Assembly: GCF_001435895.1 (NCBI RefSeq) | Contig: NZ_AZFZ01000023.1 | Span: forward strand, 1 to 41,551 | From: Lentilactobacillus parafarraginis DSM 18390 = JCM 14109 | GTDB lineage: Bacteria; Bacillota; Bacilli; Lactobacillales; Lactobacillaceae | Length of the DNA: 41,551 nt | Direction of reading: 5' to 3' | Made by a program: the position numbers and the translations under genes | The notes under the pieces: model-generated | Told to the model about the DNA's origin: nothing | Seen by the model: only the letters and a program-made list of their open reading frames with translations | The model's database searches: none | Part shown: one piece after another, positions 17,886 to 38,648 of the stretch | Numbering within the stretch: the stretch's first letter is position 1 | Layout of the letters: the number at the start of each line of letters is the position of its first letter

Positions 17886-17894
17886 TAAAACCAA

Positions 17895-18134
17895 TGAATC
17901 AAGGAGACATGACAATCACTTCTCATCGCAGGGAGGACGGCCACTAACTGGAAGGCTGTCCGTTTAGAAAATGATTGTTACCACTCCTTGAAATGGACTG
18001 CGGAAAATGCGATTCCGGTTGGTACCGTTAGCAACCACATGAGTGCTTTTTGGGGGATCCTCTCAAAAGGTGAAATGGGTGGAACCGCGCTAATTGCGTC
18101 CCTAGTGTACAACTCGTACACTAGGGATTTTTTT
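17895..18134 (+). promoter_or_regulatory. T-box riboswitch (tRNA-Thr) in the thrS leader
   Basis: Stem I is closed by CAAGGAG and CTCCTTG; next to the closing helix on the 3' side is the specifier codon ACC (17980-17982), a threonine codon. The upper stem pairs GGACGGCC with GGCTGTCC. The T-box sequence GGTGGAACCGCG lies near 18078-18089, just before the terminator hairpin. Uncharged tRNA-Thr should favour the antiterminator and switch on thrS. The leader accounts for most of the 326 bases between dnaI and thrS. Confidence 0.93.
18100..18134 (+). terminator. T-box-controlled terminator before thrS
   Basis: CCCTAGTGTAC and GTACACTAGGG form a perfect 11-bp stem with a five-base loop, followed by A and seven T. 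It is the alternative to the T-box antiterminator. Confidence 0.94.
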
Positions 18135-18167: not shown

Positions 18168-20111
18168 ATGGCAAAACTTTCATTTGAGTTTCCCGATGGC
18201 AGCGTCAAAGAATTTGACGATGGCGTTACGGCAGAAGACATTGCAAAGTCAATTGCAATCAGTTTAGGAAAAAAGGCGGTTGCCGGCAAGGTTGACGGCA
18301 AGTTTGTCAATAAAAACGAACCGTTACATAAGGGCGGTAAGATTGAAATCGTGACTGGCGATTCTGCCGATGGTCTCAGTGTTTTAAGAGAAACTGCCGC
18401 CCAGATTTTAAAGGCAGCGATTGCGGCAGACTTCAAGAATATCTACTTTGGGGAAAGCGCTGCTGATGAAGATGGCTTCTTCGTTGACACTGATAAAGCA
18501 GATACCCAGATCAGCGTGGACCAGTTGGGGGATCTGTCAAAATCAATGGAAAAGTTGATTAAGCAGGACCTGCCAATTAACGTGACATTTTTGAGCAAGG
18601 CTGATGCGCTTGCATTGGTTAAGGGCGATCCTTACCAAACCGAATTGGTCAATGAAAAGGACGCTAACGACAAGGTTAAGTTCTTTGAAATTGGTGATTT
18701 TAAGTCAGTTGCTGAAGGTGCTGTTTTGCCATCAACCGGTAAAGTTAAGATCTTCAAGCTGTTGTCAGTTGCCGGGGCATATTGGCAGGGTAAGTCGTCA
18801 AACCCAATGTTGCAACGGATTTACGCAACGGCCTTCAACAAGCAGTCCGAATTGGACGAAGACCTTAAGAAGCGCCAGGAGGCTCATGAACGTGACCACC
18901 GGGTAATTGGAAATCAGTTGGACCTGTTCTTTGTTGATCCAAAGGTCGGTGCCGGATTACCTTACTGGATGCCAAACGGAGCCACGATTCGCCGGACCAT
19001 TGAACGCTACATTGTTGACAAGGAAGTCGCTAACGGCTATGAACACGTTTATACCCCCGTTTTGGCCAACCTTGACCTTTACAAACAGTCCGGTCACTGG
19101 GATCACTACCGTGAGGACATGTTCCCACCAATGGATATGGGGGATGGCGAACAGCTTGAATTACGGCCGATGAATTGCCCAAGTCATATTCAGATTTACA
19201 ATCACCACATTCGTTCATATCGTGAATTACCGCTGCGAATTGCTGAACTCGGCATGATGCACCGTTATGAAAAGTCTGGGGCCCTGAGTGGCTTGCAACG
19301 GGTTCGGGAAATGACCTTGAACGATGGTCATACATTTGTTGCCCTTGACCAAATTCAAGAAGAATTCAAGAACATTTTGAACTTAATGGTCGATGTTTAT
19401 CATGATTTTGATATCAACGATTATACATTCCGTTTGAGCTATCGAGACCCTGAGAACACCGAAAAATATTTCGACGATGATGAAATGTGGAACCGCGCTC
19501 AAACCATGTTGAAGGGTGCCATGGATGAAATGGGCCTGGATTACACTGAAGCTGAAGGTGAAGCCGCCTTCTATGGTCCAAAGTTGGATGTTCAAACCAA
19601 GACTGCTTTGGGCAATGAAGAAACGTTGTCAACTATTCAGCTGGACTTCATGCTTCCCGACCGATTTGATCTGCACTACGTTGGTGAAGATGGCAAGCAG
19701 CATCGCCCAGTCATGATTCACCGTGGTTTGGTTTCGACAATGGAACGATTTGTGGCTTACCTGACTGAAATTTACAAGGGAGCGTTCCCAACATGGTTGG
19801 CCCCACACCAAGTTAAAATTATCCCGGTTTCACAGGATAAGCATGGCGATTACGCTAAGCAGATCAATGACCAACTGCGTAAGTTGAAGATCCGCTCCTC
19901 AGTTGAAACCCGCGGTGAGAAGATGGGCTACTTGATTCGGGATGCCCAAACCCACAAGATTCCATACACGTTGGTTGTGGGTGATGAAGAAGTCAACGGC
20001 AAGAGTGTTTCGGTTCGTCGTTATGGCGAACAGGATACTCAATCTGAATCGTTGGATGCCTTTGTTGATGAGATTCAAAAGGATATTGCCTCATACTCCC
20101 GTAACGATTAA
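18168..20111 (+). CDS. thrS: threonyl-tRNA synthetase with a degenerate editing site
   Basis: Charges tRNA-Thr with threonine. In 647 residues: TGS domain (1-62), editing (N2) domain (about 63-225), class II catalytic core (about 240-535) and anticodon domain (about 545-645). The synthetic-site zinc ligands are intact: Cys337 in MNCPSH, His388 in DGHTF and His518 in MIHRG. The four conserved editing-site residues (E. coli His73, His77, Cys182, His186) align to Glu75, Gln79, Ala182 and Val186. Hydrolysis of Ser-tRNA-Thr by this domain is therefore probably lost. ATG at 18168 follows AAAGGAG; the frame runs open through the T-box, but that is not coding. Confidence 0.97.
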
Positions 20112-20165: not shown

Positions 20166-20300
20166 AGTTGACATGAAAGCAGAAGCAACCCGCTTCTCGC
20201 CTTAGTGAAGCTATTCGCTGGGCATGATATCGAGTAAGAACCTGTTCGATAGGTTCTTTAATGATGGCGGGTGCAGTTTGTACCCGCCATCTTTCTGCTT
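20166..20300 (+). promoter_or_regulatory. ribosomal protein L20-type autoregulatory leader with terminator
   Basis: The leader between promoter and infC contains AGAAGC/GCTTCT (20181-20197), AAGAACCT/AGGTTCTT (20236-20258) and a strong terminator-like hairpin GATGGCGGGT/ACCCGCCATC (20263-20291) followed by TTTCTGCTT. Placement and architecture fit the Firmicutes L20 leader, in which L20 (rplT, third gene) binds its own leader and causes premature termination. The L20-binding pseudoknot was not modelled. Confidence 0.75.
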
Positions 20301-20327
20301 GTTCAAATTATTTGGAGGTGAAGCACC

Positions 20328-20849
20328 ATAGCTAAAGATATGATGGTTAATGATGGAATCCGAGCACGTGAGGTTCGTTTAATCGGGCCCAATGGTGATC
20401 AATTAGGTGTGAAATCTAAGAACGAGGCGCTTAAATTAGCTGAAGACGCTGAACTCGACTTAGTACTTGTTGCACCAAAAGCAAAGCCACCAGTTGCCAA
20501 GATTCTTGATTATGGGAAGTACCGGTTTGAACTTCAAAAGAAGGAACGGGAATCCCGTAAGAAACAAAAAGTCATCAGTGTCAAAGAAGTTCGTCTGAGT
20601 CCAACAATTGATGTTAACGATTTTAATACCAAATTGAAGAACGCCAAGAAGTTTTTGGCAAAGGGCGAAAAGGTTCGAGTTTCAATTCGGTTTAAGGGAC
20701 GTGCCATTACACATAAGGAAATTGGTCGAAACGTTCTCGAAAGAATGGCTAAGGAAACTGACGATGTTGCAGTTGTCACCCAACGGCCAAAAATGGACGG
20801 TAGAAGCATGTTCTTAATGCTATCGCCTAAGGAACCCGATAAAAAATAA
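20328..20849 (+). CDS. infC: translation initiation factor IF-3, probable AUA start
   Basis: Binds the 30S subunit, proofreads start-codon/initiator tRNA pairing and prevents early subunit joining. The conserved N-terminal motif [13 protein letters not shown], the helical linker and the C-terminal domain ([15 protein letters not shown]) are present. GGAGGTG (20314-20320) is seven bases before ATA at 20328 but 19 bases before the first ATG (20340), and the ATA start yields the N terminus of known IF3 proteins (residues AKDM before MVND). The start is therefore taken as ATA, giving 173 residues. Rare start codons are a known autoregulatory device in infC. Confidence 0.9.
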
Positions 20850-34872: not shown

Positions 34873-34894
34873 TCATTAAGTAAATGCGTTTGAG

Positions 34895-35116
34895 AAAAAA
34901 GTAGTAGGCTATTGGCTTGTTCAGAGACGTCGCGGCTGGTGAGAGTGACGGAAGCTGACAGTGCGAATTCATTTTTCGAGCAGAAAATGGGAGTTAAGCA
35001 TCACAAAAATTTTCCGGTGATCACCGTTAATGATTCTTAAGTGTGTCATTTTTTATAAAATGATAAATTAGGGTGGTACCGCGAAGCTTCGTCCCTGGGT
35101 GGGCGAAGCTTTTTTT
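34895..35116 (+). promoter_or_regulatory. T-box riboswitch (tRNA-Phe) in the pheST leader
   Basis: TGTTC and GAGCA close stem I, with AGAGA on the 5' side of the specifier loop and the codon TTC (about 34975-34977, phenylalanine) on the 3' side. The T-box GGGTGGTACCGCG is at 35071-35083, directly before the terminator. The downstream synthetase agrees with the specifier. This leader fills most of the 341 bases between the HxlR gene and pheS. Confidence 0.92.
35084..35116 (+). terminator. T-box-controlled terminator before pheS
   Basis: AAGCTTCG and CGAAGCTT form an 8-bp stem around TCCCTGGGTGGG, followed by a T run. The left side overlaps the region needed for the antiterminator. Confidence 0.92.
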
Positions 35117-35183
35117 GTGCCTTGATTTACATAATTTGGGTTGTTTGAAGAACGCATCTTAAATCAAAATGTGGAGGAATAAT

Positions 35184-36236: not shown

Positions 36237-38648
36237 ATGAGACTAGCATACAGTTGGCTTAAAAAGTACTTGGACCTTGATATGCCGGCCAAGGACCTGG
36301 CAGAAAAAATTGAGCGGACCGCCGTTGAAGTTGATTCGGTGACCCGTGGAGATAACGGTCTGAAGAAGATCGTGATCGGCCACATTTTATCGATGACGAC
36401 CCATCCCGATTCAGATCATTTACACATCTGTTCAGTGGATGTTGGTGAAGATCAACCACTGCAAATTGTTTGCGGGGCGCCCAATGTTGCCGCGGGGCAA
36501 AAAGTGATCGTTGCTTTGCCAAATTCTCGAATTGGTGGCAATGTCAAAATCAAACGTTCTAAAATGCGCGGTGTCGAATCCGAGGGGATGATCTGTGCCC
36601 TTGATGAAATCGGGTTTAGCAAGGATGTCGTTCCAAAGGAATGGGCTGACGGCATTTATGTATTCGATGACGATGTGCCGGTTGGCGAACCGGTATACCA
36701 CTATTTAGGAATGGACGATCCGATCATTGACTTGGATGTGACCCCTAACCGTGGTGACATGCTGAGCATTTTGGGAACCGTGCATGAATTAGCCGCTATT
36801 TACAATCAGCATCCAGAAATTAAAGCCCCGGTTGTCAACGAGGATCCCTCGCTTCGGGCTAACGATGAAATTCATGCAACTGCAGATCACCAGCTCGCCA
36901 AAACGTATAAATTGCGGGTAATTAAGGGTGTCAAAATTGCCCCAAGTCCGGCTTGGCTTCAGATCACCTTATGGAATGCCGGCGTTCGCCCAATTAACAA
37001 CGTGGTTGACGTTACCAATTATATTTTGATGAAGTATGGGCAACCACTACATTCATTTGATCAGGATAAGATTGATGGTGATATTACCGTCCGTTTGGCT
37101 AACCAAGGTGAAAAGATCACCACGCTAGATGAAGAAGAGCGGGAGTTATCCACTGAGGATATGGTGATTGCCGATCAGAAACAGCCGATTGCAATTGCCG
37201 GGGTCATGGGTGGATTTAACACCCAAATTGATGACAACACAAAAGACGTTGTGTTGGAGTCCGCCATTTTCGATTCATTCCACATTCGTAAAACCGCCCA
37301 GCGCCACGTTCTTCACTCAGAGGCTTCCCAGCGCTTTGAGCGGGGAATTAACCCGGACACGGTTGAAGCGGCGGTCAATGAGGCTGCTAACATGATTCAA
37401 CAGCTTGCTGGCGGCCATATTGCTCAGGGAATCGTGACGGCAAGCGAGTATCATCCGGAATTACCGACCATTTTTATCACGGCTGAACGTACCAACCACG
37501 TGTTGGGAACGGATCTGAGTTTAGAGGATATCAAGCAAATTTTCGATCGCCTTGGTTTTTCAAGTGAATCGGTCAAAGATGGGCTAAACGTCACAATTCC
37601 GGCTCGCCGTTGGGACATTCATATCGAGGCCGATCTGTTCGAAGAGGTGGCCCGAATATACGGATATGACAACTTACCGGCAACCTTGCCAACTGGCCGG
37701 CAAACCATTGGGACACTGACACCCACTCAAAAAATTCAACGCGCATCCCGCCAGATTCTTGAAGGATTGGGTCTCACGCAGGCAATTTCATATTCATTAA
37801 CCACCGAGGCCAAAGCCAGCATGTTTTTGATGCGGGACAGTAAGCTGACTAAACTGATGTCACCAATGACGCAGGATCATTCAACGTTGCGGATGAATAT
37901 TTTAAGCGGTTTGCTCGACGATGTCGCATACAATCATGCCCACAAGGTCGATGACGTTGCCTTATATGAAACTGGCCGGGTCTTTTACAAGGACAGTGAT
38001 GATCAGGTTCGTCCAGAAGAAGTTGAACATATTGCGGGCGTTTTAACCGGTAATTTAACCGATCCTTCTTGGAATAACCACGTTTCACCAGTTGATTTCT
38101 ATCAGTTAAAGGGCATTGTTGATCAGTTTATTACGAATCTTGGTGTTAATGGTGCAATCACGTATACGTCAACCGATCGTTATCCCGAAATGCACCCAGG
38201 CAGAACCGCTGATATTGCGGTTCACGGCCATTACGTTGGCTTTATTGGCCAGGTTCATCCAAAGATTGCCAAGCAATTTAAGATTAAACAAACCTACGCC
38301 TTTGAACTGAATATGCAAACGCTGATTGATTTGCCAAAGACCGACGATCAGTACCAGGCCATTTCCAAATACCCATCTGTTAAACGGGACATTTCCTTAT
38401 TAGTTGACACTTCGGTTTCAAATGACCAGGTTGTTGAATTGATGAACAAACGTGGCGGCGCATTCCTTCACGATATTCAGTTGTTTGATGTTTATGAAGG
38501 CAAGAACGTCCCTAATGGAAAGAAATCAATGGCTTACTCACTCGTTTATGTCAATCCGCGGGAAACGCTTAAGGATGAAGTTGTCACAGCGGCTTTTGAA
38601 AAGGTTAAAAAACACTTAACTGATGAACTAAATGCGGAAATTCGTTAA
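36237..38648 (+). CDS. pheT: phenylalanyl-tRNA synthetase beta subunit
   Basis: The 803-residue tRNA-binding and editing subunit. An N-terminal OB-fold tRNA-binding domain (about 40-150, HPDSDHL), the B3/B4 editing domain (about 210-390) with PLHSFD and LESAIF intact, a B5 domain (about 405-480), the catalytic-like core, and a C-terminal FDX-ACB domain (about 710-803) are recognisable. In contrast with thrS here, the editing motifs appear conserved. It is co-transcribed with pheS. Confidence 0.97.
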   Translation: MRLAYSWLKKYLDLDMPAKDLAEKIERTAVEVDSVTRGDNGLKKIVIGHILSMTTHPDSDHLHICSVDVGEDQPLQIVCGAPNVAAGQKVIVALPNSRIGGNVKIKRSKMRGVESEGMICALDEIGFSKDVVPKEWADGIYVFDDDVPVGEPVYHYLGMDDPIIDLDVTPNRGDMLSILGTVHELAAIYNQHPEIKAPVVNEDPSLRANDEIHATADHQLAKTYKLRVIKGVKIAPSPAWLQITLWNAGVRPINNVVDVTNYILMKYGQPLHSFDQDKIDGDITVRLANQGEKITTLDEEERELSTEDMVIADQKQPIAIAGVMGGFNTQIDDNTKDVVLESAIFDSFHIRKTAQRHVLHSEASQRFERGINPDTVEAAVNEAANMIQQLAGGHIAQGIVTASEYHPELPTIFITAERTNHVLGTDLSLEDIKQIFDRLGFSSESVKDGLNVTIPARRWDIHIEADLFEEVARIYGYDNLPATLPTGRQTIGTLTPTQKIQRASRQILEGLGLTQAISYSLTTEAKASMFLMRDSKLTKLMSPMTQDHSTLRMNILSGLLDDVAYNHAHKVDDVALYETGRVFYKDSDDQVRPEEVEHIAGVLTGNLTDPSWNNHVSPVDFYQLKGIVDQFITNLGVNGAITYTSTDRYPEMHPGRTADIAVHGHYVGFIGQVHPKIAKQFKIKQTYAFELNMQTLIDLPKTDDQYQAISKYPSVKRDISLLVDTSVSNDQVVELMNKRGGAFLHDIQLFDVYEGKNVPNGKKSMAYSLVYVNPRETLKDEVVTAAFEKVKKHLTDELNAEIR

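Follow-up and report, generated by a model that had tools for sequence, protein, structure and literature searches.

The window analyzed here, a stretch of 41,551 nucleotides from Lentilactobacillus parafarraginis DSM 18390 = JCM 14109 (contig NZ_AZFZ01000023.1, positions 1 to 41,551), carries on its forward strand thrS, the gene for threonyl-tRNA synthetase (ThrRS). The gene runs from an ATG at 18168 to a stop codon at 20111 and specifies 647 amino acids counting the methionine; it is the only full-length ThrRS found in the genome. Its product scores 656 bits against TIGR00418, the model of bacterial ThrRS (curated cut-off 383.65), is 92% identical to the ThrRS of Lentilactobacillus hilgardii, and matches the TGS, SAD, class II core and anticodon-binding domains. 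The N1 (TGS) domain occupies 18168–18353 (PF02824, 47.7 bits). It is followed by the N2 domain at approximately 18354–18842, which is of full length and folded but has lost its editing residues and scores 24.7 bits against PF07973 (SAD), barely over the cut-off of 24. The catalytic core lies at approximately 18891–19769 and contains a loop (19158–19184) that bears the zinc ligand C337 as well as E331 and S339 (E. coli positions 328 and 336). The anticodon-binding domain at 19770–20108 (PF03129) served as a control of evolutionary rate.

An editing-competent N2 carries the motifs HxxxH and CxxxH, and neither is present in the ThrRS of the window. The first-pass annotation had placed E75, Q79, A182 and V186 at E. 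coli H73, H77, C182 and H186, and a pairwise alignment to the ThrRS of E. coli K-12 gave the same result at the same coordinates. The former HxxxH motif (18390–18404) now reads E75-T-A-A-Q79, with E75 encoded at 18390–18392 and Q79 at 18402–18404, and the former CxxxH motif (18711–18725) reads A182-E-G-A-V186, with A182 at 18711–18713 and V186 at 18723–18725. Three positions that we take to be further residues of the editing pocket are also substituted (Y104 to V, K156 to Q and D180 to S, E. coli numbering). Other histidines or cysteines in the pocket would speak against a loss of the site, but the N2 of the window contains 0 His and 0 Cys, so that no alternative alignment can put such a residue there. 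The synthetic site had been described as intact at C337, H388 and H518, and the zinc ligands at E. coli C334, H385 and H511 are indeed all retained. According to excerpts of PMC4041444, the kcat of editing by E. coli ThrRS falls more than 500-fold in C182A or C182S, 7000-fold in H73A and 70-fold in H186A. In being of full length with its catalytic residues gone, the N2 of the window resembles the degenerate type of Mycoplasma capricolum.

As first framed, the loss was too narrow in its unit, as it is a trait of most of the family Lactobacillaceae. This emerged from the alignment of ThrRS across the family that had been proposed as a check. The comparison set comprised 224 distinct ThrRS rows (247 of 251 loci yielded a row), each named by its letters at E. 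coli positions 73, 77, 182 and 186. Two copies of the window gene (L001 and L035), a locus cut by a contig end (L198), a degenerate second copy (L200 in genome G278, whose main copy, L199, reads HHCH) and identical rows had been dropped beforehand. The intact state, HHCH, was found in 65 rows, namely 61/61 from eight other families of Lactobacillales (part of 129 matched genomes outside the Lactobacillaceae) and 4/4 of the Periweissella type (a single named row plus three of code genus g18). A second state, HHDL, was found in 25/25 rows from seven Lactobacillaceae code genera (g2, g7, g8, g16, g17, g28 and g38), which we infer to be the Leuconostoc, Weissella and Oenococcus group from their place beside Periweissella. 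Here the motif reads LDRGGL or LDKGGL (26 loci: L116, L117 and L146–L170 except L168), and K156, Y104 and both histidines of HxxxH are invariant.

All of the remaining 134 rows, which belong to Lactobacillus sensu lato and include the window, have lost the site. They come from 19 genera known by name and from 22 code genera, with overlap between the two sets. None of the four residues is retained in 129/134, five rows retain H73 only, and Cys at position 182 is found in 0/134; the 53 different four-letter combinations form a pattern expected from drift. Because the loss is present in 134/134 rows, it is neither a sequencing error nor a private mutation. All 38 code genera of the family were read and 30 of them are lost, including eight (g5, g11, g14, g23, g24, g27, g30 and g32) whose loss rows are identical to named rows and hence contribute no code rows to the 224. 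In the rest of the class Bacilli, 59/61 rows (from 57 of 121 genomes outside the Lactobacillales) read HHCH. Both non-HHCH rows among these 61 come from second ThrRS copies, one that has no N2 (L366 in G424) and one with a degenerate N2 (L365 in G381) that accompanies an HHCH copy (L322). Loss of editing in a sole ThrRS was seen solely in the Lactobacillaceae within this sample. The second copies L200, L365 and L366 are possibly resistance or stress paralogues.

Two trees were built with N2 left out, one from the catalytic and anticodon-binding parts of 117 of the 224 rows and the other from 52 rows under a site-mixture model. The loss rows form one clade, with support in the Shimodaira–Hasegawa-like approximate likelihood ratio test (SH-aLRT) of 95 and 89, respectively, and Periweissella groups with the HHDL genera. 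The trees favor three changes away from the intact state, but the approximately unbiased test rejected neither a single HHDL clade (p-AU 0.467) nor a clade of HHDL and lost rows together (p-AU 0.257).

The selection acting on N2 was assessed by refitting branch lengths domain by domain on a fixed tree and expressing them relative to the catalytic core. The N2 ratio is 4.89 in the lost rows (2.82–6.75 over 40 bootstrap draws of columns), compared to 1.70 in the intact rows (0.97–2.30) and 1.47 in the HHDL rows (0.84–2.21), and this picture is unchanged after removal of the motif columns. For the same three groups, the anticodon-binding domain gives 2.80 (1.66–4.07), 2.61 (1.42–3.72) and 2.53 (1.25–4.13) over as many draws, while the N1 ratios of 4.38, 3.01 and 1.97 indicate an acceleration weaker than that of N2. 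A tree-free comparison used pairs of 80–85% identity in the core, which are not independent of one another; with motif columns out, N2 identity is 0.469 in lost (3383 pairs), 0.681 in intact (618) and 0.708 in HHDL pairs (64), and the corresponding values for the anticodon-binding domain are 0.573, 0.585 and 0.540. Measured against the core, the roughly threefold acceleration of N2 is confined to the loss group, and the domain is relaxed only in rows that lack the complete motif set. The HHDL site looks altered yet constrained, with an N2 that appears to bear no mark of relaxed selection. Against the Pfam SAD model, two Periweissella-type genomes score 57.6 and 65.1 bits and 11 HHDL genomes 37.0–43.8 bits; the scores of 48 loss genomes reach at most 45.2 bits, and 10 of these genomes are without any match.

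Although its active residues are gone, N2 retains its fold. An AlphaFold2 model of N1-N2 (40 sequences) has a predicted local distance difference test score (pLDDT) of 94.8 and matches the E. coli editing domain 1tje with a Z score of 26.8 over 221 residues, as well as 1nyq with a Z score of 28.8 (VIA). The ThrRS of the window therefore has the N2 fold, on a list of structural matches that excludes no other fold. Furthermore, the other families show 19 invariant positions within E. coli positions 196–222 of N2, and the loss rows keep 15 of these at 90% or more, a conservation as would be expected of a surface for tRNA contact or packing. According to excerpts of PMC4267643, N2 of bacterial enzymes binds to the acceptor stem, and charging falls when N2 is deleted. 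The earlier suggestion that the domain may have another function can thus be narrowed. N2 evolves fast overall, yet its fold and its C-terminal part are conserved, a combination that fits a remnant serving structure or tRNA contact better than a new catalysis. As for N1, code genera g3 and g6 have lost the greater part of the domain, at seven loci (L172–L174, L177 and L195–L197) in six genomes, one of which (G040) has two N1-deleted thrS genes (L173 and L174).

With the editing site lost, cells must tolerate, or otherwise avoid, serine in place of threonine. Two ways out had been proposed at the outset, a second ThrRS and a free-standing ThrRS-editing-like deacylase, and neither was found. First, the genome of the window holds a single full-length ThrRS match. 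Its three other matches are short (25–28% identity) and lie in open reading frames (ORFs) of 444 and 575 amino acids; the latter, on contig C101, carries a PF04073 domain and so is a ProRS. Second, no free-standing SAD ORF (PF07973, ThrRS-ed/AlaX-type) was found in this genome, in which only AlaRS and ThrRS matched, and none in 60/61 sampled genomes of the family, with the reservation that the model also missed the N2 of ThrRS in 10 and that a decayed copy could escape it. The sole free-standing SAD ORF among the 61 has 372 amino acids (G034:C1:369287-369403). Stand-alone PF04073 (YbaK-type) ORFs, in contrast, are present in 61/61 genomes of the family, Periweissella included (hand count, ORFs of less than 300 amino acids), and in 29/32 genomes of editing-intact other families (hand count). 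Since genomes that retain ThrRS editing carry these ORFs as well, YbaK was rejected as a specific replacement, though not as a contributor. With no second ThrRS, no SAD protein and an unspecific YbaK, tolerance and/or a stricter synthetic site remain.

A general collapse of proofreading is not supported, because five other synthetases of the same genome keep the editing residues that were checked, at positions presumed to be the relevant ones. These are AlaRS (four positions, with the editing Cys retained), LeuRS (four), IleRS (six), ValRS, for which the result rests on K277 and conserved neighbors, and PheRS beta, for which it rests on E. coli beta positions 318, 334 and 356. The last of these is encoded in the window itself, at 36237–38648 on the forward strand, and provided an internal control. 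The same genome also has a 229-amino-acid ORF (L291, G000:C186:15481-15882) with a free-standing B3/4 (PheRS-editing-like) match.

At the synthetic site, 27 positions that we take to be its residues are unchanged in the loss rows, save for the loose position 311. Beside the zinc-ligand Cys, however, E. coli positions 328 and 336 are occupied by E and S in 163/163 Lactobacillaceae rows and by V and H in 61/61 rows of the other Lactobacillales families. Elsewhere in the Bacilli, the rows read have either H or G at 336. As they are shared by all Lactobacillaceae rows, including the intact Periweissella, these changes precede the loss by parsimony. Four of the seven changes on the stem fall within 20 residues near the zinc Cys, and 297 of 20,000 random draws were as tight; this clustering was noticed after looking and is a lead, not a test. 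We regard the changes at 328 and 336 as candidate permissive changes, which could have made the loss affordable.

Collectively, the substitutions at the editing site, their spread over the whole group, the acceleration of N2 (and, to a lesser degree, of N1) and the failure to find a second ThrRS or SAD protein led us to favor, with a probability of about 0.85, the explanation that N2 is folded but dead for editing and kept for packing or tRNA contact, with fidelity left to the synthetic site and to tolerance. According to this explanation, the four-residue site would have disappeared in the ancestor shared by the Lactobacillus-sensu-lato genera or shortly thereafter, and it was regained in no row seen. 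The ThrRS of the window would no longer hydrolyze Ser-tRNA(Thr) in N2. The domain would owe its persistence to its C-terminal part, which would continue to pack against the enzyme and to contact the acceptor arm of the tRNA, while the old pocket drifts. Less surely, the synthetic site may now secure fidelity through discrimination and pre-transfer hydrolysis, together with tolerance of low levels of serine at threonine codons. Tolerance is plausible in that E. coli with a C182A ThrRS grows like the wild type, as excerpts of PMC6918089 state.

Several points weigh against this explanation. Excerpts of PMC6918089 also state that high levels of serine at threonine codons harm E. coli. The 27 positions checked at the synthetic site do not point directly to a stricter one, and the SAD scores do not split the HHDL genomes (37.0–43.8) from the lost ones (best 45.2) cleanly. 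YbaK could partly cover Ser-tRNA(Thr). Finally, a chemistry of N2 that uses neither His nor Cys is conceivable, the loss of activity being read from the sequence.

Among the other explanations, ordinary relaxed selection stands at roughly even odds; it holds that losing Ser-tRNA(Thr) editing costs little in niches rich in amino acids and that nothing makes up for the loss. Against it, other families of Lactobacillales also inhabit rich niches and yet keep the site, and the site is retained in 59/61 rows of the other Bacilli. On the other side stand the unchanged growth of E. coli C182A and the naturally proofreading-deficient ThrRS reported in Mycoplasma and yeast mitochondria, both in excerpts of PMC6918089.

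It is rather unlikely that the trigger was oxidative, with peroxide made by the family inactivating the C182 site and the Cys then being dropped, either through a Cys-free site (HHDL) or with editing altogether (Lactobacillus sensu lato). Lactic acid bacteria do form peroxide, but streptococci, which are among the peroxide formers, keep the Cys (3/3 rows of g41, which we infer to be Streptococcus), and so does the AlaRS of the window's genome. The HHDL rows fit this explanation in that they changed C182 and H186, kept H73 and H77 in 25/25 cases and have an N2 that is not relaxed, although their editing activity is only putative. Excerpts of PMC4041444 add that C182 is oxidized by peroxide and that H73 and H186 are required for the oxidation. 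A joint scenario of two routes appears equally doubtful. In this scenario, the stem changes V328E and H336S would have made activation of serine rarer; one part of the family would then have rebuilt a Cys-free and oxidation-proof HHDL site, which would be under selection to this day, and the other would have abandoned editing, retained N2 for tRNA contact without catalysis, and later deleted most of N1 in two genera.

Slimmer still are the chances that a YbaK/EbsC-type deacylase took over and clears Ser-tRNA(Thr) in trans. Relatives of the ProXp-ST type clear Ser-tRNA(Thr), a stand-alone PF04073 ORF is present in every family genome sampled, and the copy of the window's genome passes TIGR00011. 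However, the name of that model is Cys-tRNA(Pro) deacylase, and such ORFs also occur in both Periweissella-type (g18) genomes sampled and in most genomes of the other families. It is highly improbable that editing in N2 continues through another chemistry, in which different residues would place a water molecule on Ser-tRNA(Thr). Although the fold and the block at 196–222 are kept, the pocket positions drift freely in a relaxed domain, Y104, K156 and D180 are replaced in the window, and the block is also conserved in intact enzymes and so gives no sign of a new pocket.

Compared to known systems, the loss favored here, of editing in an N2 that stays folded, shows both likenesses and differences. 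First, the ThrRS of Mycoplasma capricolum, which Zhou et al. (2016, J Biol Chem) reportedly found to be editing-defective, is likewise a bacterial ThrRS with a full-length degenerate N2. M. capricolum, however, is host-bound and has a small genome, whereas the Lentilactobacillus genome has 3.1 Mb, five of its other synthetases keep the residues checked, and the trait extends over 19 named genera. Second, Melnikov et al. (2018, PNAS) are said to have described editing loss in host-restricted bacteria, which is also a natural loss of synthetase editing residues; by contrast, the Lactobacillus group, with its free-living members, lost one editing site selectively. Third, the N1-N2 model also matches a mammalian mitoribosomal large-subunit protein (Z 19.8–22.3), which we take to be mL39. 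The N1-N2 fold has a ribosomal role there, and the N2 of Lactobacillus is likened to it by fold alone. Fourth, the yeast mitochondrial ThrRS, which lacks an editing domain, carries out pre-transfer editing at its synthetic site and still forms some Ser-tRNA(Thr), according to excerpts of PMC4267643. It too works without post-transfer editing by N2, but N2 is wholly absent there and is kept as a folded domain in the Lactobacillus enzymes.

Several leaders lie near these genes. A T-box leader precedes thrS on the forward strand at 17888–18106 (RF00230); it is divergent, scoring 54.5 bits (E 2.5e-11 in a search of 401 bases), under the gathering score of 93. Mis-serylated tRNA(Thr), in a cell without editing, might hide threonine starvation from this leader. 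Downstream, an L20 leader at 20171–20301 stands before an ORF at 20340, and a further T-box at 34880–35099 stands upstream of an ORF at 35169, itself followed by the PheRS beta gene; both leaders are over the gathering score.

The Lactobacillus-type group includes free-living, food and industrial bacteria. According to excerpts of a review (PMC10057733), synthetases that have lost editing characterize host-restricted bacteria and not free-living ones. In the literature searched, no record was found of a group-wide loss of ThrRS editing that includes free-living bacteria, is selective among the synthetases checked, and has both intact and constrained Cys-free relatives, although the 2018 survey, which lay outside the search, may list it. 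In the genome of the window, one editing site of the six synthetases checked is gone, and this in a large group with free-living and industrial members. The family thus offers a natural experiment, with Periweissella intact, HHDL altered and Lactobacillus lost. It opens the questions of how cells live without ThrRS proofreading, of whether or not the synthetic site was sharpened first, and of what purpose an inert N2 serves. It also leads to the prediction of a measurable Thr-to-Ser signature in the proteomes of strains that are common in food and as probiotics.
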